Shown: positions 2,869 through 16,590 of the stretch, piece by piece
Layout: every line of letters begins with the position of its first letter
How positions within the stretch are numbered: position 1 is the stretch's first letter
Made by a program: the position numbers and the translations under genes
The notes under the pieces: model-generated
What the model saw: the letters and a program-made list of their open reading frames with translations, nothing else
The model's database searches: none
Told to the model about the DNA's origin: nothing
Source of the DNA: an uncultured Faecalibacterium sp.
GTDB lineage: Bacteria > Bacillota > Clostridia > Oscillospirales > Ruminococcaceae
Reading direction: 5' to 3'
Assembly: GCA_934547065.1 (NCBI GenBank)
Contig: CAKTEF010000023.1
Coordinates: forward strand, 1-20,959
Length of the DNA: 20,959 nucleotides

Positions 2869-4767
2869 ATGTATCGCGCACTGTACCGCAAGTGGAGACC
2901 CCAGCGGTTTGAAGATGTGGTGGCCCAGCGGGCCATTGTGACCGCGCTCAAAAACCAGATCGCCACCGGCCGCGTGGGCCACGCCTACCTGTTTACCGGC
3001 GTGCGCGGCACCGGCAAGACCAGCTGCGCCAAGATCTTTGCCAAGGCGGTCAACTGCCTGCATCCCCACAACGGCGACCCCTGCGGCGAGTGCGAGATCT
3101 GCCGCGGCATCGACAACGGCAGCATCCTGGACGTGGTGGAAATGGACGCGGCTTCCAACAACGGCGTGGACGATATCCGCGACCTGCGCGATGAAACGGC
3201 CTACACCCCCAGCGCCTGCCGCTACAAAGTATATATCATCGACGAGGTACACATGCTCTCCACAGCGGCGTTCAACGCCCTGTTGAAAACGCTGGAAGAA
3301 CCGCCTGCCCACGTCATTTTTATCCTGGCTACCACCGAGATCCAAAAGGTGCCCGCCACCATCCTTTCGCGCTGCCAGCGGTACGATTTTACCCGCATCG
3401 GCCCGGAGGACATTGCCCGCCGGGTGGAGTATATCGCCGGGCAGGAGCAGCTGGAACTGACCCCGGAGGGCGCGGAGCTGATCGCCCGCCTGGCCGATGG
3501 TGCCATGCGCGATGCGCTGTCCATCCTGGACACCTGCGCGGGCGTTACGGCAAAGATCGACGCGGATGTGGTCCGCCGGATGGCCGGTGTGACCGACCGC
3601 AGCTACCTGTTCCGCATCTCGGATGCCGTGGAAGCCCAGGACGGGGCCGCGGCGCTGGCCCAGCTGGCCCAGCTGCGGCAGCAGTCGGTGGATGTCAAGC
3701 GGCTGACGGAGGAGCTGATCGCCCATTACCGTGCCCTGATGCTGGCGGCCCTGCCCGGCGGGCAGGCGCTGCTGTCCGGTGTTTCGCCGGAGGAAGAACA
3801 GCAGTATCTGGAAAAAGGCCCCCGCCTGGGCCAGCGGGAAGCCATCCGGGCCATCCGGACGCTGGGCAACGCGCTGGAACACATGACCCGCGGCAGCGAC
3901 CAGCGCATTGAACTGGAACTGGCGCTGTTCGGCCTGGCCGAACCGGCCCCGCAGGCGGCGGTACAGGCCGCCGCTGCCCCGGCCCGCGCAGCCGCTCCCC
4001 AGCCGGAAGCGCCCCGGCCCTTTGCTTCGGCCCCGGTGCAGCCCTTTGTGAGCACTTCGGCTCCCGCCGCCCCGGCGGCTCCGCAGCCTGCGCCGGAAGA
4101 AGCGCAGCCTGTGTCCGCCGCCCCGGCAGAGCAGTTTGCAGCGGCTGCGGAAGAACCGGAACCGGTTTCCGTGCCGCAGCCGCCCAGGGAGGAGACTCCG
4201 GCCGCGTCCGCTCCGGCAGAGGAGGAACAGCCGCCTCTGCCCGAAGAACCGCCGGTCCGGGCCGATGCCGCACCCCCCTGGGACGAGCCGCCCCGCGCGG
4301 TGCCGCCGGAACGTCCGGAAACGCCGCAGCCGGTCCCGGCACCGCAGGAGGAACCCGCCGCTGCTGCACAGCCGGAATACCGGGCAGACCCGACCCTGAA
4401 CAAGCCCCGCAAGGTGGCGGCGGCCGGGATCAACCCGTTCCCCCAGTGGGGCGAGGTGGTCCAGCTGCTGCAGGAAAAGGATCCCATGCTCTACACCTAC
4501 CTGAAAAAGTCGAAAGGCTATTTTGATGGGACGCGGGTGCTGATCGACGGCGGAAAGACGTTCCGGGATTTCATCCGTCAGAACAAGGACAGCCAGAAGC
4601 TGATCAAAAAGCTGATCGCACAGGTGTCCGGCGTGGCCGTGCCCATCGGCCCCTACGAGCCCAAGGCCGCCGGACGCACGGCGAACAACGCCGAGGAATC
4701 CCTCCACAAGCTGGAACAGCTGGGGCTGGAGGTGTCGATCGAGGAAAGCAACCGAAAGAAAAAGTGA
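2869..4767 (+). CDS. dnaX: DNA polymerase III subunit gamma/tau
   Basis: A 632-residue clamp-loader ATPase of the replicative polymerase. Seen: Walker A GVRGTGKT at 44-51, zinc cysteines C63, C72, C75 and C78, Walker B IIDEVH at 123-128 and sensor segment LATTE at 153-157. The SRC motif is at 167-169. After the AAA+ and collar domains (to about 380) comes a linker of roughly 150 residues that is very rich in Ala, Pro and Glu, then a conserved tau-like C-terminal domain from about 530 (INPFPQWGEVVQLL) to the end. The start at 2869 has GGGGAG upstream; an in-frame ATG at 2767 lies inside the SRP RNA and was rejected. No A-AAA-AAG slippery heptamer was seen, so a frameshifted gamma form is not indicated. 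ybaB and recR follow, as in many Firmicutes. Confidence 0.95.
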   Translation: MYRALYRKWRPQRFEDVVAQRAIVTALKNQIATGRVGHAYLFTGVRGTGKTSCAKIFAKAVNCLHPHNGDPCGECEICRGIDNGSILDVVEMDAASNNGVDDIRDLRDETAYTPSACRYKVYIIDEVHMLSTAAFNALLKTLEEPPAHVIFILATTEIQKVPATILSRCQRYDFTRIGPEDIARRVEYIAGQEQLELTPEGAELIARLADGAMRDALSILDTCAGVTAKIDADVVRRMAGVTDRSYLFRISDAVEAQDGAAALAQLAQLRQQSVDVKRLTEELIAHYRALMLAALPGGQALLSGVSPEEEQQYLEKGPRLGQREAIRAIRTLGNALEHMTRGSDQRIELELALFGLAEPAPQAAVQAAAAPARAAAPQPEAPRPFASAPVQPFVSTSAPAAPAAPQPAPEEAQPVSAAPAEQFAAAAEEPEPVSVPQPPREETPAASAPAEEEQPPLPEEPPVRADAAPPWDEPPRAVPPERPETPQPVPAPQEEPAAAAQPEYRADPTLNKPRKVAAAGINPFPQWGEVVQLLQEKDPMLYTYLKKSKGYFDGTRVLIDGGKTFRDFIRQNKDSQKLIKKLIAQVSGVAVPIGPYEPKAAGRTANNAEESLHKLEQLGLEVSIEESNRKKK

Positions 4768-4800
4768 GGATGAGCCGCAGGGCTTGACCGGACTGCCAAG

Positions 4801-4854
4801 GCCTCTCCCTTTGGGAGAGGTGGCAGCGCGTTAGCGCTGGCGGAGAGGGTGAGC
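4801..4854 (+). repeat. Extragenic repeat, type A (short form)
   Basis: GCCTCTCCC...GGGAGAGG, TGGCAGCGCGTTAGCGCTGG and CGGAGAGGGTGAGCC. With the reversed copy at 4942-4996 it occupies most of the 307-bp gap between dnaX and ybaB, where I see no gene and no convincing terminator. Confidence 0.7.
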
Positions 4855-4941
4855 CAGTTAAAAGTAGAACAGTAAACGCTGCAATGGACAAGCTCTTTCA
4901 AAGAGATTTTCCTATCGCTGCGAAGAAGTTTTTGTTAGCAT

Positions 4942-7227: not shown

Positions 7228-7746
7228 TTACAGCTTTTTATAGCCCTCCGGTTCGTCATCGGCACAGCGCCGCTCCATCAGGTAGGTGTCCAGCCAGCGG
7301 CCGTGGCAGTCGCGCGCGATCCGCTCCCGGCGGCCCACCAGACGGAACCCGCACTTCAGGTGCAGCCCGCGCGAGGGGGCGTTGTCCTGCAGCACCGTGG
7401 ATTGCAGCGTCCAGTATCCGGCCTGCTCGGCGGCGCGGCAGAGGGCTGTGAGCAGGTGACAGCCCAGCCCTTTGCCCCGGAACCGCTCCCCGACATAGAT
7501 GCTGACCTCGGCCACGCCGCGGTAGCACCAGCGGGGGTCCACCCGGTGCAGGGCGGTCCACCCGGCCACAACTCCGTCCACCAGCACCACCAGCCGACAA
7601 TCTTTGGTGTGGGAGGCATCCCACGCCGTGTAGGGCGGGCAGGTGGTCTGGAACGTGGCGTGCTCGGTGGCAATGCCTTCCAGATAAATTTTTGAAACGG
7701 ACTTCCAGTCCTCCGGCTCCATTGGCCGGATCGTGATCTCACTCAT
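7228..7746 (-). CDS. GNAT N-acetyltransferase, phosphinothricin acetyltransferase-like
   Basis: A 172-residue acetyl-CoA-dependent N-acetyltransferase. Seen: N-terminal IRPMEPEDWKSVSKIYLEGI with TATFQT-like TEHATFQT at 27-34, the central VAEVSIYVGERFRGKGLG, where R90-G-K-G-L-G95 is the pyrophosphate-binding loop of the GNAT fold, and LQDNAPSRGLHLKCGF at 119-134. This arrangement is that of the PAT/MnaT subfamily, whose members acetylate glutamate analogues such as methionine sulfoximine, but the substrate here is unknown. The start at 7746 (MSEITIRP) has AGGA 9 bases upstream; an in-frame ATG at 7791 lacks one. It has its own promoter and appears monocistronic. It is not part of the smpB unit, which has its own promoter downstream. 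Confidence 0.85.
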   Translation of the reverse strand: MSEITIRPMEPEDWKSVSKIYLEGIATEHATFQTTCPPYTAWDASHTKDCRLVVLVDGVVAGWTALHRVDPRWCYRGVAEVSIYVGERFRGKGLGCHLLTALCRAAEQAGYWTLQSTVLQDNAPSRGLHLKCGFRLVGRRERIARDCHGRWLDTYLMERRCADDEPEGYKKL

Positions 7747-13431: not shown

Positions 13432-14613
13432 ATGAGCGTGAAAAAGATCAGCGAAGCCATCCTGGGCCTGGGCGTGGACGACACCACCATCGACCTGTTC
13501 GAGAGCCAGTATCCCGTTCCGACCGGTGTCAGCTATAACTCTTATCTGATCCTGGACGAAAAGACCGCCATCCTGGATACCGTGGATGCCCGCGCCACCG
13601 ATGCGTGGCTGGAAAACCTGACCCAGGCACTGGCTGGCCGCAAGCCGGATTATCTGGTGGTCAGCCACATGGAGCCGGATCACGGCGCAAACATTGCCAG
13701 GCTGGCTGCGCTTTACCCGGAAATGCAGGTGGTGGGCAACGCCAAAACGTTCCAGTATATGGAGCAGTTCTTTGGCCCTGAAGCCATTGCCAAGGATCGC
13801 CGCGTGGTGGTCAAGGATGGTGAGAGCCTGAGCCTGGGTGCCCACACGCTGACCTTTGTGTTTGCTCCCATGGTACACTGGCCGGAGGTCATGGTCAGCT
13901 ACGAATCTGCCGAAAAGGTGCTGTTCTCGGCGGATGGCTTTGGCCGTTTTGGCGCGGTGGCAAAGTTTGACGAGCACGCCGATTGGGCCAGCGAGGCCCG
14001 CCGCTATTACCTGAACATCGTGGGCAAGTACGGCCCGCAGGTGCAGGCCCTGTTGAAAAAAGCGGCGGCGCTGGACATTGCCACCATCTGCCCGCTGCAT
14101 GGTCCGGTGCTGACCGGAGATCTGGGCAAGTACCTGAACTACTACGACATCTGGTCCAGCTATAAGGCCGAGGAGCCGGAAAAGATCCTGGTGGCAAGCG
14201 CTTCCATCCACGGCCACACCCGCGATGCCGCCCACACCATGGCCGCAAAGCTCCGCGCCAAGGGTGCCAAGGTGGTGGAGATGGACCTGACCCGCACGGA
14301 TGTCTCCTATGCTGTGACCGAAGCGTTCCGCTGCGGGAAGATCGTGCTGGCATGCGCCACCTACGACGGCTTCCTGTTCCCGCCGATGGAAAATCTGCTG
14401 GCCCACCTCAAGACCAAGGCGTTCCAGGGCCGCACCGTGGGCCTGATGGAAAACGGCACTTGGGCCCCCATGGCCGCAAAGCTGATGCGGGCCGAGCTGG
14501 AAAGCATGAAGAATATCACCCTCTGCGAGAACGTGGTCACCATCCGTTCGGCCGCCAATGCGGCCGCCGAAGCACAGATGGATGCCCTGGCAGAGGAACT
14601 GATCGCAAAATAA
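13432..14613 (+). CDS. Flavodiiron protein (FprA family, oxygen or NO reductase)
   Basis: A 393-residue two-domain protein. The N-terminal metallo-beta-lactamase-like domain (about 1-245) has the diiron ligands: H79-x-E81-x-D83-H84 (SHMEPDHG), H149 (MVHWPE), D168 (FSADGFG) and H223 (PLHGP). The C-terminal flavodoxin-like domain (about 250-393) starts KILVASASIHGHTRDAA, the FMN phosphate loop, and includes CATYDGFLFPPME. Such proteins reduce oxygen to water or NO to nitrous oxide using rubredoxin or related donors, and protect strict anaerobes from oxygen. No fused rubredoxin domain is present. AAAGGAGAGG precedes the ATG. It is monocistronic, with its own promoter and terminator. Confidence 0.94.
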   Translation: MSVKKISEAILGLGVDDTTIDLFESQYPVPTGVSYNSYLILDEKTAILDTVDARATDAWLENLTQALAGRKPDYLVVSHMEPDHGANIARLAALYPEMQVVGNAKTFQYMEQFFGPEAIAKDRRVVVKDGESLSLGAHTLTFVFAPMVHWPEVMVSYESAEKVLFSADGFGRFGAVAKFDEHADWASEARRYYLNIVGKYGPQVQALLKKAAALDIATICPLHGPVLTGDLGKYLNYYDIWSSYKAEEPEKILVASASIHGHTRDAAHTMAAKLRAKGAKVVEMDLTRTDVSYAVTEAFRCGKIVLACATYDGFLFPPMENLLAHLKTKAFQGRTVGLMENGTWAPMAAKLMRAELESMKNITLCENVVTIRSAANAAAEAQMDALAEELIAK

Positions 14614-14614
14614 A

Positions 14615-14659
14615 AAAGACAAGGAGATCCCCACGCTTTGTGGGGATTTTCTTGTCTTT
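14615..14659 (+). terminator. Terminator of the flavodiiron gene
   Basis: A 20-bp stem (14615-14634 with 14640-14659, two G-U pairs) around a 5-base loop, 2 bases after the stop codon. The T-rich descending arm is part of the stem. It carries the -35 box (TTGTCT, 14652-14657) of the next promoter, so terminator and promoter overlap. Confidence 0.8.
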
Positions 14660-14680
14660 CTGGCAAATCTATGATACACT
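14652..14680 (+). promoter_or_regulatory. Promoter of the small-ORF RNA
   Basis: TTGTCT (14652-14657), 17 bases, TACACT (14675-14680) with an extended TGA. The predicted start near 14687 falls at the foot of a perfect 7-bp hairpin with a GAAA loop (TGCCGCA 14686-14692, TGCGGCA 14697-14703), which would cap the 5' end of the RNA. Confidence 0.65.
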
Positions 14681-14734
14681 GAACCTGCCGCAGAAATGCG
14701 GCAAGGCACTGTACATACGGCAGGCGGTTTGGTC

Positions 14735-14758
14735 TCTCACTTCCGAAAGGGGGTGAGA
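14735..14758 (+). promoter_or_regulatory. Hairpin sequestering the Shine-Dalgarno of the small ORF
   Basis: TCTCACTTCC (14735-14744), loop GAAA, then GGGGGTGAGA (14749-14758): a 10-bp stem with two G-U pairs. It contains the whole ribosome site AAAGGGGGTGA and the A of the first ATG, so translation should be off while it is folded. Confidence 0.75.
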
Positions 14759-14823
14759 TGATGCCGATTCCTTTGACGTTCCATCTGTTTGGACTTACGT
14801 TCACGCTTCGGATCAAAAAGTAA
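14758..14823 (+). CDS. 21-codon ORF, candidate type I toxin peptide
   Basis: The peptide begins MMPIPLTFHLFG and ends LTFTLRIKK: a short apolar stretch with a basic tail, too short for a standard membrane helix but able to associate with membranes. I do not recognise the family. It is supported as a real gene by an almost perfect ribosome site (AAAGGGGGTGA), a promoter at a suitable distance, the hairpin that buries the ribosome site, and a terminator that overlaps its stop codon. A second ATG at 14761 could also be used. From memory, small holin-like toxin RNAs of Clostridia have the same TCTCACTTCC...GGTGAG hairpin and ACCGCCACC...GGTGACGGT terminator with a different peptide between. Function is inferred, not shown. 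Confidence 0.6.
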   Translation: MMPIPLTFHLFGLTFTLRIKK

Positions 14824-14909
14824 AACCGCCACCTTGGCCGAGGTGACGGTTTTGATTTGAAACCCTAATCTCGAAAGAGGCCAAACCGCTTGTTGCAGTG
14901 CCTTTTTCT
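14815..14909 (-). ncRNA. Candidate antisense antitoxin RNA
   Basis: Expected product of the consensus minus-strand promoter at 14916-14944: about 95 bases, starting near 14909 and ending after the hairpin at 14822-14853, whose minus-strand side is followed by TTTTACTTTTT. It would be fully complementary to the 3' end of the small-ORF mRNA, including its last codons and terminator. No ORF is evident in it. Ends are predicted from promoter and terminator only. Confidence 0.55.
14822..14858. terminator. Shared bidirectional terminator of the small-ORF module
   Basis: AAAACCG (14822-14828) pairs with CGGTTTT (14847-14853) and CACCT (14830-14834) with AGGTG (14841-14845), one C-A mismatch, loop TGGCCG. 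T-rich sequence follows on both strands (TTTTGATTT on plus, TTTTACTTTTT on minus), so both RNAs can end here. The loop contains GGCC and could start kissing between the two RNAs. Confidence 0.8.
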
Positions 14910-14915
14910 GTTTTG

Positions 14916-14944
14916 ATTATAACGCATCGCCGTGGTTCTGTCAA
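14916..14944 (-). promoter_or_regulatory. Fully consensus antisense promoter
   Basis: Minus strand: TTGACA (14944-14939), exactly 17 bases, TATAAT (14921-14916). It lies just past the stop codon of the MFS gene, on the same strand, and faces only the small-ORF module; no protein gene on this strand could be served by it. Confidence 0.85.
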
Positions 14945-14969
14945 GGAGTACGGCGGTGCGTTTTTTGCA

Positions 14970-16169
14970 TCAGCTTTGGCGCTTTCCGGCCAGCACCGCG
15001 CCGCTGAGCGCCACCACGGCACCCAGCACGGCAAGGCCCGCCCCGGCCTGGCCGAACACATCCCCCACAGCGCCCACCAGCGGGCTGGCCGGGATCATCA
15101 GCAGGCTGTACGCCATGCTGTCGATACTGATGATGGTGGCCCGTTGATCGCTGGGGATGCTGTCGTTCAGCTTCTGGCTCTCGTGCAGGAGGTAGACCTC
15201 CAGAACGCCCTGCACCAGCATCATGCCCAGGATGCCGCCCCACGCGGGGGCCGCACCCACCAGGACCGTGCCCGCGCCGCACAGCAAAGCGCACGCGGCA
15301 TAAAACCGCCGCATGGAGCAAAAGCGGACCCGGCGGCCGATCTCGGTGCCCAGCACGCAGGCCAGGCCGCCCAGCAGCAGGGGAACGAACAGCACCTCGG
15401 TGGGCCAGCCCAGCTCAATGAGCCGCTGCTGCAAAAACATTTTGGTCAGATAGCTGGGCACGCTGATCAGGGCGCTGGATGCAATGAGCTTGACCGCCAG
15501 CGGGTTTGCGTGCAGGATGTGCAGGCTGTCCCGCACCAGCCGGCAGAACTGCTCCGGCAGGCTGCGCAGGGACTGCGTTTCCCGGTTGGCCTGTGCCTCG
15601 GTGACGATGGGCTCCGCAAGCAGCATATTGGCAAGAGCGGAGGTGGCCTCAAAGGCGGCGTTCAGCAGGTAAAAGCCTGCAAAGCCGAGGAACCGGTTCA
15701 AAAGGCTTGCCAGTGAGCCGACGGCATTGGCCAGCATCGAGATCTGGGAGCTGTTGGCGGATACTTGAAGGTAGGCTTCTTCACGGCCTTCCTGCTTCAG
15801 GCTGTCGTAGACCAGGGCTGTGGAGGTGCCGGAGAACATGGTCATGGCCAGTGCGTTCAGCCCCATGGCAAAGCAGACGGAAAACAGGTTGGACGCAAAC
15901 GCCATCAGCAAGCTTTGCGCGACCATGCACGCCCCGCCGAACACGATGGCCTTTTTACGGCCCAAAAGGTCCGCTGCCATGCCGCTGGGCACTTCGCACA
16001 GCAGGCTGATGACATGGAATACGCTCTCGGCCAGGCCGATCTCCCACAACGAAAAGCCTCGTGCCGCCAGCAGCGCCACCCACACGGCATCCGTGATGCG
16101 CAGGCCGGAGAAGAAATCGGAAGTGTAAATGCAGCCAAGCTGCTTTTTCAGATTGAGTTTATGATCCAT
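14970..16169 (-). CDS. MFS transporter, 12 membrane segments
   Basis: A 399-residue integral membrane protein of the major facilitator superfamily, probably a proton-driven exporter. Seen: about twelve hydrophobic segments, and the loop 2-3 signature AADLLGRKKAIVFGG (the MFS G-x-x-x-D-x-x-GRK motif) near residues 65-79. A hydrophilic central loop (about 185-210, ETQSLRSLPEQFCRLV) separates the halves. The start at 16169 has GAAAGGGTG upstream; an in-frame ATG at 16196 was rejected. The substrate cannot be named; multidrug efflux is possible. It has an unusually long upstream region containing repeats and a structured RNA with a 14-codon ORF (16415-16622) on the same strand, suggesting possible attenuation control. 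Confidence 0.87.
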   Translation of the reverse strand: MDHKLNLKKQLGCIYTSDFFSGLRITDAVWVALLAARGFSLWEIGLAESVFHVISLLCEVPSGMAADLLGRKKAIVFGGACMVAQSLLMAFASNLFSVCFAMGLNALAMTMFSGTSTALVYDSLKQEGREEAYLQVSANSSQISMLANAVGSLASLLNRFLGFAGFYLLNAAFEATSALANMLLAEPIVTEAQANRETQSLRSLPEQFCRLVRDSLHILHANPLAVKLIASSALISVPSYLTKMFLQQRLIELGWPTEVLFVPLLLGGLACVLGTEIGRRVRFCSMRRFYAACALLCGAGTVLVGAAPAWGGILGMMLVQGVLEVYLLHESQKLNDSIPSDQRATIISIDSMAYSLLMIPASPLVGAVGDVFGQAGAGLAVLGAVVALSGAVLAGKRQS

Positions 16170-16260
16170 GGGAAACACCCTTTCTTTTATGATCAACAGA
16201 AATGAGTGTCCCTTTTGTAAAACTTTGAGCTTATGCTTTGTAGGAAAAGCAGTTTTTGTT

Positions 16261-16307
16261 TCACCTCATCAGTCTGCTGCGCAGACAGCTTCCCCAGAGG
16301 GGAAGCC
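16261..16307 (-). repeat. Extragenic repeat, type B, reversed
   Basis: TCACCTCATCAGTCTGCTGC, GCAGACAGC and TTCCCCAGAGGGGAAGCC, the reverse complement of the unit at 220-280 (the CAGTCTGCTGCGCAGACAG hairpin is identical). It lies in the leader of the MFS gene. Confidence 0.75.
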
Positions 16308-16352
16308 GATTGCTGCTCTCGGTCAGCTGGTGCTGAATCTGGGAGATGCGTT

Positions 16353-16407
16353 GCCTCTCCCCTTTGGGAGAGGTGGCATTGCGAAGCAATGACGGAGAGG
16401 GCGAGGC
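16353..16407 (+). repeat. Extragenic repeat, type A (short form)
   Basis: GCCTCTCCC...GGGAGAGG, TGGCATTGCGAAGCAATGACGG is split between the two hairpins, and AGAGGGCGAGG closes it. It matches 2538-2594 closely apart from the compensatory changes in the second stem (TTGCGAAGCAA here, AACGCGCCAGCGTT there). Confidence 0.75.
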
Positions 16408-16414
16408 CGCTCCC

Positions 16415-16450
16415 AAAACAAAAGCGCCCCATAGCAAAGCTACGCGGCGC
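16415..16450 (-). terminator. Terminator or attenuator of the MFS leader RNA
   Basis: Minus strand: GCGCCGCGTAGC (16450-16439), loop, GCTATGGGGCGC (to 16424), then TTTTGTTTT (16423-16415). The stem has 11 pairs and one mismatch. It lies about 245 bases before the MFS start codon. Confidence 0.7.
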
Positions 16451-16590
16451 ACAAATCACGGCTCCACGTTCTGCTGAAAGTTACAAAAGGGTACACTTCG
16501 AGCCGGAAAAGCTTAGGGCTGTCCTTTTTGAAAGAACACGCGACCGTTCCAACCCATCCGGGTGTACCCTCCTTTCAGAAAAACGTTGTA
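16424..16590 (-). ncRNA. Structured leader or small RNA upstream of the MFS gene
   Basis: A candidate transcript from the promoter at 16594-16622 to the terminator at 16415-16450. CTGAAAG (16578-16572) and GGGTACAC (16569-16562) near the 5' end pair with GTGTACCC (16496-16489) and CTTTCAG (16480-16474). This encloses a 14-codon ORF and inner stems CCGGA/TCCGG and GGGTT/AGCCC. The outer stem buries the ORF's ribosome site. I do not recognise it as a named RNA family. It may be an attenuator for the MFS gene or a free small RNA. Confidence 0.45.
16513..16557 (-). CDS. 14-codon ORF, candidate leader peptide
   Basis: Encodes MGWNGRVFFQKGQP. GAAAGGAGGG ends 9 bases before the ATG, an ideal ribosome site, and the same bases form the outer stem of the leader RNA. 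The stop is followed by the second half of that stem and then a terminator. This is the order expected if ribosome stalling or pausing on a short peptide decides whether transcription reaches the MFS gene, but no stalling motif is recognised. Confidence 0.4.
   Translation of the reverse strand: MGWNGRVFFQKGQP

Follow-up and report, generated by a model that had tools for sequence, protein, structure and literature searches.

The locus considered here comprises approximately 260 bases between two convergent genes on a Faecalibacterium-like chromosome piece, and the question that it raises is whether so short an interval holds a toxin gene together with an antisense RNA gene that controls it. 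The window, i.e. the whole stretch of DNA that was analysed, is 20,959 nucleotides long. The product of the upstream gene was 93% identical to its counterpart in Faecalibacterium sp. I4-1-79 in a sequence search and was named a flavoprotein by inspection, and the facing gene on the other side was named an MFS-type transporter by inspection of its ORF translation. A preliminary description of this DNA had proposed a type I toxin-antitoxin module with an unrecognised peptide, and direct reading of the sequence recovered every feature that it listed between the convergent genes (Table 1). Taken together, the results described below suggest that the locus is probably a type I toxin-antitoxin-like module and that it belongs to a large family with its centre in the order that contains Faecalibacterium and Gemmiger.

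Table 1. Features of the candidate locus, in coordinates of the window.
Feature	Position	Strand	Basis
Toxin-side promoter, TTGTCT-17-TACACT, with TGa extended -10	14652..14680	+	Read directly; family scoring
5'-terminal hairpin of the sense RNA, GCCGCA-GAAA-UGCGGC (GAAA loop)	14687..14702	+	Fold
Sense 5' tag AAGGCACTGT	14703..14712	+	Leader comparisons; nearly identical to the antisense RNA tag AAGGCACTGC
Conserved sense leader ACGGCAGGCGGTT	14717..14729	+	Family alignment
Hairpin burying the ribosome-binding site GGGGGTG (GAAA loop)	14735..14758	+	Fold
Peptide ORF, 20 aa, MPIPLTFHLFGLTFTLRIKK	14761..14823	+	Alignment of relatives; alternative in-frame ATG at 14758
Two-way intrinsic terminator	14822..14853	.	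Promoter/terminator scan; family alignment
Predicted antisense (antitoxin) RNA, about 93 nt	14817..14909	-	Fold; family-wide promoter
Antisense leader hairpin with tag, AAGGCACTGC ... GCGGTTTGGCC	14879..14904	-	Folds; leader comparisons
Antisense promoter, TTGACA-17-TATAAT	14916..14944	-	Scan, 12/12; family scoring

The sense half was read from its promoter onward. The -35 box TTGTCT lies at 14652-14657 and is followed by a 17-base spacer and the extended -10 element TGaTACACT, which ends at 14680. The claimed plus-strand promoter is thus present and conserved in the family (mean 10.1/12 vs 7.5 for shuffled sequences, n = 122), but it is weak in the window itself, where the best script score was 8 of the 12 consensus bases (the named hexamers were also read by eye), close to the shuffled mean, and it is credible mainly because of the family mean. 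The GAAA hairpin described for the 5' terminus was read at 14687-14702 and formed part of the predicted fold; it is comparable to the 5'-UH of par, and by eye it varies or is missing among relatives. The second hairpin, with 10 bp and arms at 14735-14744 and 14749-14758, encloses GGGGGTG together with the A that opens the first ATG; direct reading confirmed that it covers the ribosome-binding (SD) site and the start-codon A as had been stated, and folding across the family predicted burial of the SD. In the fold predictions, the unpaired probability of the SD was 0.00 in the window and averaged 0.036 over 112 copies, compared with 0.339 when the upstream bases were shuffled; burial exceeded that of the upstream-shuffled control in 111 of these copies, and the probability was below 0.2 in 103, indicating predicted sequestration. 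On a tree, covariation of the SD hairpin was weak, with two same-branch co-changes against 0.6 expected and a simulated maximum of 4, and the support for this hairpin therefore comes from folding. The predicted sense RNA as a whole folded with a z score of -3.5, and none of 200 shuffles folded as well.

The ORF behind this hairpin had been described as having 21 codons. Read from the first ATG, it encodes MMPIPLTFHLFGLTFTLRIKK (14758-14823). Close relatives have a single ATG, which aligns with the second one of the window (MPIT...), so that a 20-aa peptide starting at 14761 is more likely; the frame itself is conserved. Across 13 aligned codons of 26 unique sequences, pS was 0.68 and pN 0.29, and the differences at the three codon positions numbered 1419, 804, and 2659, with third positions contributing 2659 of 4882. 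A third-position-like excess as in the ORF frame was not seen in the other two frames of the same 26 sequences. These substitution patterns clearly point to protein-like selection on the ORF. The peptide of the window had no match in Pfam, NCBIfam, PADLOC, or PDB, in keeping with its having been called unrecognised, and the Pfam scan (0 families) gave no match to Hol_Tox, PF16935. With a maximum 15-residue hydropathy of 1.28, it is not a clear membrane helix, and the hydrophobic helix and PxxxG motif of Fst were not found in it by sequence, hydropathy, moments, or Pfam.

The terminator was located at 14822-14853, overlapping the stop codon and served from both strands as described. Its stem contains a C.A mismatch on the sense strand (14829/14846) that is a G.U pair on the antisense strand, and both were invariant in the 30 sequences of alignment A2; on the tree, the terminator showed 12 same-branch co-changes compared with 1.9 expected. 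The minus-strand boxes are TTGACA at 14944-14939 and TATAAT at 14921-14916, separated by a spacer of 17. A scan of 14500-15100 returned this promoter as the sole promoter-like site, compared with a mean of 0.2 in shuffles; it scored 12/12, and the family mean was 11.5/12 vs 7.5 for shuffled sequences (n = 121); the promoter that had been called perfect is perfect in the window and nearly so among its relatives. The predicted antisense RNA had a fold z score of -5.3, which none of 200 shuffles matched. Judged from sequence and promoter conservation, the putative antisense RNA gene overlaps the toxin gene at the terminator, the arrangement by which a type I locus is recognised. The antisense promoter appears stronger than the sense promoter, which is the asymmetry expected if the antitoxin is made in excess. 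At 14921-14960 of the window, a hairpin, CGCATCGCCG...CGGCGGTGCG, carries the antisense -35 box in its loop and has TTTTTT behind it; by eye, L151 and L156 have the same layout with other stems.

BLAST identified related elements in Gemmiger formicilis and Faecalibacterium. Within the genus, same-site homologues with 84-88% DNA identity were found in 2 of 31 members, and matches with E <= 1e-3 were found in 11 of the 31 genomes, one of which, G001, has the antisense half only. A chance assembly of terminator, promoter, and short ORF between convergent genes might have been suspected, given that convergent flanking genes need terminators and that the window has a weak sense promoter; however, it is refuted by this conservation and is contradicted by the protein-like codon evolution and by covariation, leaving it a probability close to nil. 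Covariation was assessed in alignment A2, which comprised 30 of the 32 full copies (L138 and L140 were excluded because of their different ORF), and 27 of its 30 sequences were used in A5 and A6. Four of five structure measures of A2 exceeded all 500 shuffles, the fifth (further pair types) being reached by 24 of the 500, and all five exceeded the slid controls.

R1, a covariance model covering the entire element, was built from 30 sequences. It matched 102 of 396 genomes of one taxonomic family (E <= 0.01), 67 of 345 genomes of the order (E <= 1e-4), and 7 of 348 genomes of the phylum (E <= 1e-4), where training copies, which match by construction, came from 9, 2, and 1 of the matching genomes, respectively. 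The phylum matches included G003 and G434, the latter also being in the order sample. Many copies were present in some genomes and tandem arrays occurred; the copy numbers are lower bounds, since six candidates per genome were scored in the 396-genome set and seven in the order and phylum sets, the latter with stricter filters. The matches at L146 and L148 were judged to be due to chance. Among viral sequences, 27 contigs or stretches preselected by exact patterns gave 26 matches, several of them near-identical. Copies were also found on two unannotated phage records, and one copy, L303 (61% of the query covered), lies on a secondary replicon of Vescimonas, with no listed feature beneath it in the PLSDB gene table, itself incomplete. 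For the wide survey, 100 loci were used, with near-duplicates skipped and part of the fetched copies excluded; after the partial match L178:664 was dropped from 123 matches, 122 copies remained, and both leaders were located in 100 of these, the sense leader in 103, and the SD in 112 (in 10 it was not located). In the covariance-model search that had been suggested beforehand, the SD hairpin, terminator, convergent promoters, and ORF frame recurred in many genomes and the peptide varied. No Rfam match at the gathering score was obtained for the element in the window and 13 loci with relatives; GcvB and OhsC scored far below it in the window and were rejected. The family was not described in titles and abstract openings among the matches listed from the open-licence PMC literature, which is weak evidence of absence. 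The element is apparently a member of a large, unnamed family of tiny toxin-antitoxin-like loci.

The two halves of the element were searched with separate models in 31 genomes, in which strong matches (>60 bits) defined 17 antisense loci and 14 sense loci. Three of the 17 were antisense-only (two in G001 and one in G212) and none of the 14 was sense-only. At the three antisense-only loci, weak sense-model matches of 26-35 bits remained, and by eye their downstream flanks matched flanks of intact copies in other genomes. Although the numbers are small, loss of the toxin half with the antisense half kept fits the direction predicted for a toxin-antitoxin pair. L178:664-765 was rejected as a toxin-only copy, as the partial match runs into assembly Ns. 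In L323 (G207:C16), a diverged copy at approximately 1380-1620 has a changed leader and, on translation by eye, encodes the unusual peptide MRLTITTTLRKLMFQFIIKRRNRHSGK; it is possibly decaying.

Thirty loci of the flavoprotein gene were compared. At the site of the window, the element was present in G201 and G211, and the flavoprotein and transporter genes were adjacent without it in G213 and G174; these occupied and empty versions indicate that the element comes and goes. Behind the same flavoprotein gene in Faecalibacterium sp. I4-1-79, L001 carries two copies of another repeat (ACGGTnTTCAAGACCGAGnAGGGC...) at 7365-7545. A dispersed repeat occurs in the window at 2272-2820, 4604-4891, and 16193-16459, where the translated ORFs have CHLSQR-like stretches in common, and by its sequence it looks like an intergenic palindromic repeat family; positions 2412-2587 and 4780-4825 match flanks of the loci of relatives. 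Within the transporter ORF and on the same strand, ARAGORN called a tRNA-Ser (15234-15320, minus strand) that is absent from the Rfam listing and is probably a false positive.

The consensus fold revealed a further feature that was absent from the preliminary description. The sense leader pairs with the antisense leader in a 25-pair inverted repeat, and each arm lies in its own transcript, so that both RNAs begin with nearly identical sequence. The first approximately 10 leader bases were highly variable between loci and matched within a locus. Leader similarity was 9.06 for cognate pairs vs 4.91 for non-cognate pairs, with a mean rank of 5.2 of 89, and none of 10000 permutations was as good; this test covered 100 of the 122 copies (90 unique pairs) and ignores relatedness. 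On a 29-sequence tree, the leaders showed 19 same-branch changes; 5.7 were expected, and no more than 12 occurred in any of 2000 simulations. Of the 19, 17 left a standard pair, and the slid controls gave 0 to 3. The arms nevertheless remain stably distinct, their sequence being mostly GGYAG in the sense leader and GAYAA or GAYAG in the antisense one. The covarying 25-pair inverted repeat, the many copies present in some genomes, the tandem copies, and the presence or absence of the element at one site could also describe a MITE-like small mobile element, whose inverted repeats would be transposition ends and whose peptide and antisense RNA would be passengers or maintenance genes. We consider this quite unlikely: the repeats are internal to both predicted transcripts and the conserved promoters external to the repeats, and the stable differences between the arms speak against it as well.

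Duplex energies of the leaders were only slightly better for cognate pairs, -19.5 kcal/mol vs -18.3 kcal/mol for non-cognate pairs, with none of 10000 permutations as good, and the mean rank of the cognate duplex among 99 was 37.5 when the sense RNA was kept constant and 36.5 when the antisense RNA was. Strand exchange of the tag was not predicted by co-folding of the window pair and 103 copies, in which only the 3' overlap paired. Because the specificity in duplex energy is weak and co-folding pairs the 3' overlap only, a concerted change of the inverted repeat at the DNA level stays a live alternative; the difference between the two RNAs at neighbouring leader positions is a point against it. 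As a tentative and rather doubtful proposal, the tag could be a cognate address, in which twin leader hairpins would exchange their 5' arms after the complementary terminators join and would thereby insulate the many paralogues of a genome, with an order-wide chassis swapping unrelated killer peptides, namely amphipathic beta-strand pairs and transmembrane helices. Such an address would mean RNA recognition through identity instead of complementarity.

A second contact is suggested within the sense RNA. GGCGGTT in the conserved leader (14717..14729) is complementary to AACCGCC (14824-14830) in the 5' arm of the terminator, and of 103 copies, 68 have all 7/7 bases complementary and 100 have at least 5. 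L190 and L197 have the compensatory pair GACGGUU/AACCGUC; both motifs are otherwise nearly invariant, so that the covariation support amounts to this one change. In many copies of the helix group (see below), the last AACCGCC bases fall in the terminator loop, and this placement together with the invariant C-A stem mismatch in A2 means that terminator function alone does not explain these bases. The natural reading is that the 5'-3' contact would keep the mRNA inert, for which hok and others are precedents. Co-folding of the window's sense and antisense RNAs gave a complex with 47 bp paired and a ddG of -47 kcal/mol. In 103 complexes, no contact of at least 6 bp was found at the SD, ORF, or leader by co-folding, a method that is blind to loop-loop contacts, and inhibition would therefore have to act through the 3' overlap. 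A par-like pairing of the antisense RNA with the SD was rejected, since a 6-nt match in the window, CGAAAG, is not kept in relatives (by eye) and such a contact is missing from the co-folds. Direct repeats like those of par were not found; the sole direct repeat of at least 10 nt joins the ORF and the antisense promoter region, away from the SD.

To characterize the peptides, the ORFs of the 122 copies were classified. By script and then by hand recount, about 58 copies have beta-patterned peptides, about 61 have helix-like hydrophobic peptides, and 3 have no ORF. The script, which took the best ORF behind an SD-like string, gave 44 beta, 61 helix, 14 other, and 3 none; the recount moved 13 of the 14 others and L267 to beta and the remaining one, L201, to helix, and L227, L241, and L242 are ambiguous. 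Examples of the beta-patterned type are MPITLTFHLFGFTFTIRVKK and MRITLHIGPFTVTIIVKRRNRHPAR, and of the helix-like type MTIMEILTFLLVIIEIIKLNNKKK and MDYIVIVLALLLLLIIAIKK; most helix-like peptides have basic tails. Nine peptides resembling that of the window had first-strand beta moments with z scores of 0.8 to 2.9 and negative helical moments, whereas nine helix-like peptides had beta z scores of -1.4 to 0.7 and helical z scores of -0.1 to 1.3. Among 13 further or related beta peptides, the best Pfam E value was 0.022. The helix-like peptide of L189, MSVYETLVLMIAFAALMIEYIGKRK, which has a TTG start, matched Pfam Hol_Tox with 25 bits against a cut-off of 23.3, and this scaffold-mate above the curated threshold is in line with the likeness to holin-like toxin loci that had been noted. 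L138 and L140, both in G014, combine a beta-branch leader and antisense RNA with a rebuilt terminator; L138 has a helix-type ORF, no ORF was found in L140, and the same genome also has beta-type copies. Payload exchange is possible in these two copies. The comparison of copies suggests that the scaffold is the conserved unit and that the peptide is exchangeable, with at least two unlike payloads. That the scaffold is common to helix-like and Hol_Tox peptides is the best evidence that the peptide of the window is a toxin-type payload.

The peptide could instead be a non-toxic signalling, leader, or regulatory peptide, with the antisense RNA only tuning its expression. A beta type is unusual beside the alpha-helical membrane toxins in the portion of a review that was consulted, although a table legend there marks some as beta-sheet, and a few beta peptides showed a weak, sub-threshold likeness to YrzI (PF09501/TIGR02413): 2 of 13 in one scan and one more elsewhere, with 10.6-12.8 bits where the cut-offs are 23 and 47. 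The window peptide itself had no YrzI match in Pfam or NCBIfam. In the excerpt of PMC10100781 that was used, the yrzI operon is described as encoding multiple peptides of unknown function. On the other side, about half of the scaffold copies have hydrophobic helix-like peptides, most of them basic-tailed, loss affects the toxin half of loci that retain their antisense half and not the other way round (3/17 vs 0/14), and the gene next to the element in the window is not its usual neighbour (2 of 30 loci). A non-toxic peptide is accordingly unlikely, and a toxin remains the preferred reading.

The type I module was compared with known systems. TxpA/RatA and BsrG/SR4 of Bacillus have convergent antisense RNAs over the 3' end, as does the present locus, and TxpA and BsrG are presumably Hol_Tox members, as is L189; unlike them, the window peptide is not Hol_Tox and the overlap extends little beyond the terminator. 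As far as the consulted part of PMC7472228 goes, par of pAD1 has convergent promoters, a shared bidirectional terminator, an SD stem, a 5' stabilising hairpin, and a short peptide with a charged tail, and the locus resembles par and the Fst-Ldr systems (RNA I/RNA II) in each of these. In contrast to par, direct repeats that would provide a second complementary zone over the SD are missing and an inverted repeat with near-identical leaders is present instead; the predicted antisense RNA is about 93 nt, not about 40; and the peptide is beta-patterned without the PxxxG motif of Fst. The likeness to par/Fst is therefore one of architecture only, and by analogy the logic is probably par-like. Among clostridial systems, the C. 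difficile pairs CD2517.1-RCd8 and CD2907.1-RCd9 have convergent toxin and antitoxin genes; according to the consulted sections of PMC6563280, their toxins measure 34-59 aa and include a transmembrane domain, and the complementary region is long. The locus is like these pairs and their relatives in being clostridial with convergent genes, and unlike them, by that partial description, in its shorter peptide and little overlap.

The type I proposal of the preliminary description is thus supported by the protein-like ORF, the predicted SD lock, the convergent antisense gene, and the terminator shared across relatives, all of which are read from sequence. In the corresponding model, the antisense RNA would be made in excess and would form a duplex with the toxin mRNA through their overlapping 3' ends, 47 nt in the window; this duplex would be degraded or remain untranslated. 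Two further locks would keep the mRNA inert: the SD hairpin and an internal pairing between the GGCGGUU of its leader and the AACCGCC of its 3' end. When the antisense supply drops, the longer-lived mRNA could be processed and translated, and the short basic peptide would then harm the cell, probably at the membrane. The scaffold would be conserved and the peptide exchanged, being beta-patterned in the branch of the window and helix-like elsewhere.

If this reading is right, common gut Clostridia (Faecalibacterium and Gemmiger) carry antisense-controlled peptide genes, some of them in several copies, which annotation may miss. It would separate the scaffold from the payload in type I toxin-antitoxin loci, and it would place a beta-patterned peptide where the toxins in the consulted part of the review are mostly alpha-helical. 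Why two opposed RNAs keep an identical, fast-changing 5' tag is a puzzle that the family poses. Its members may form a new set of modules for self-control or addiction among common gut microbes.
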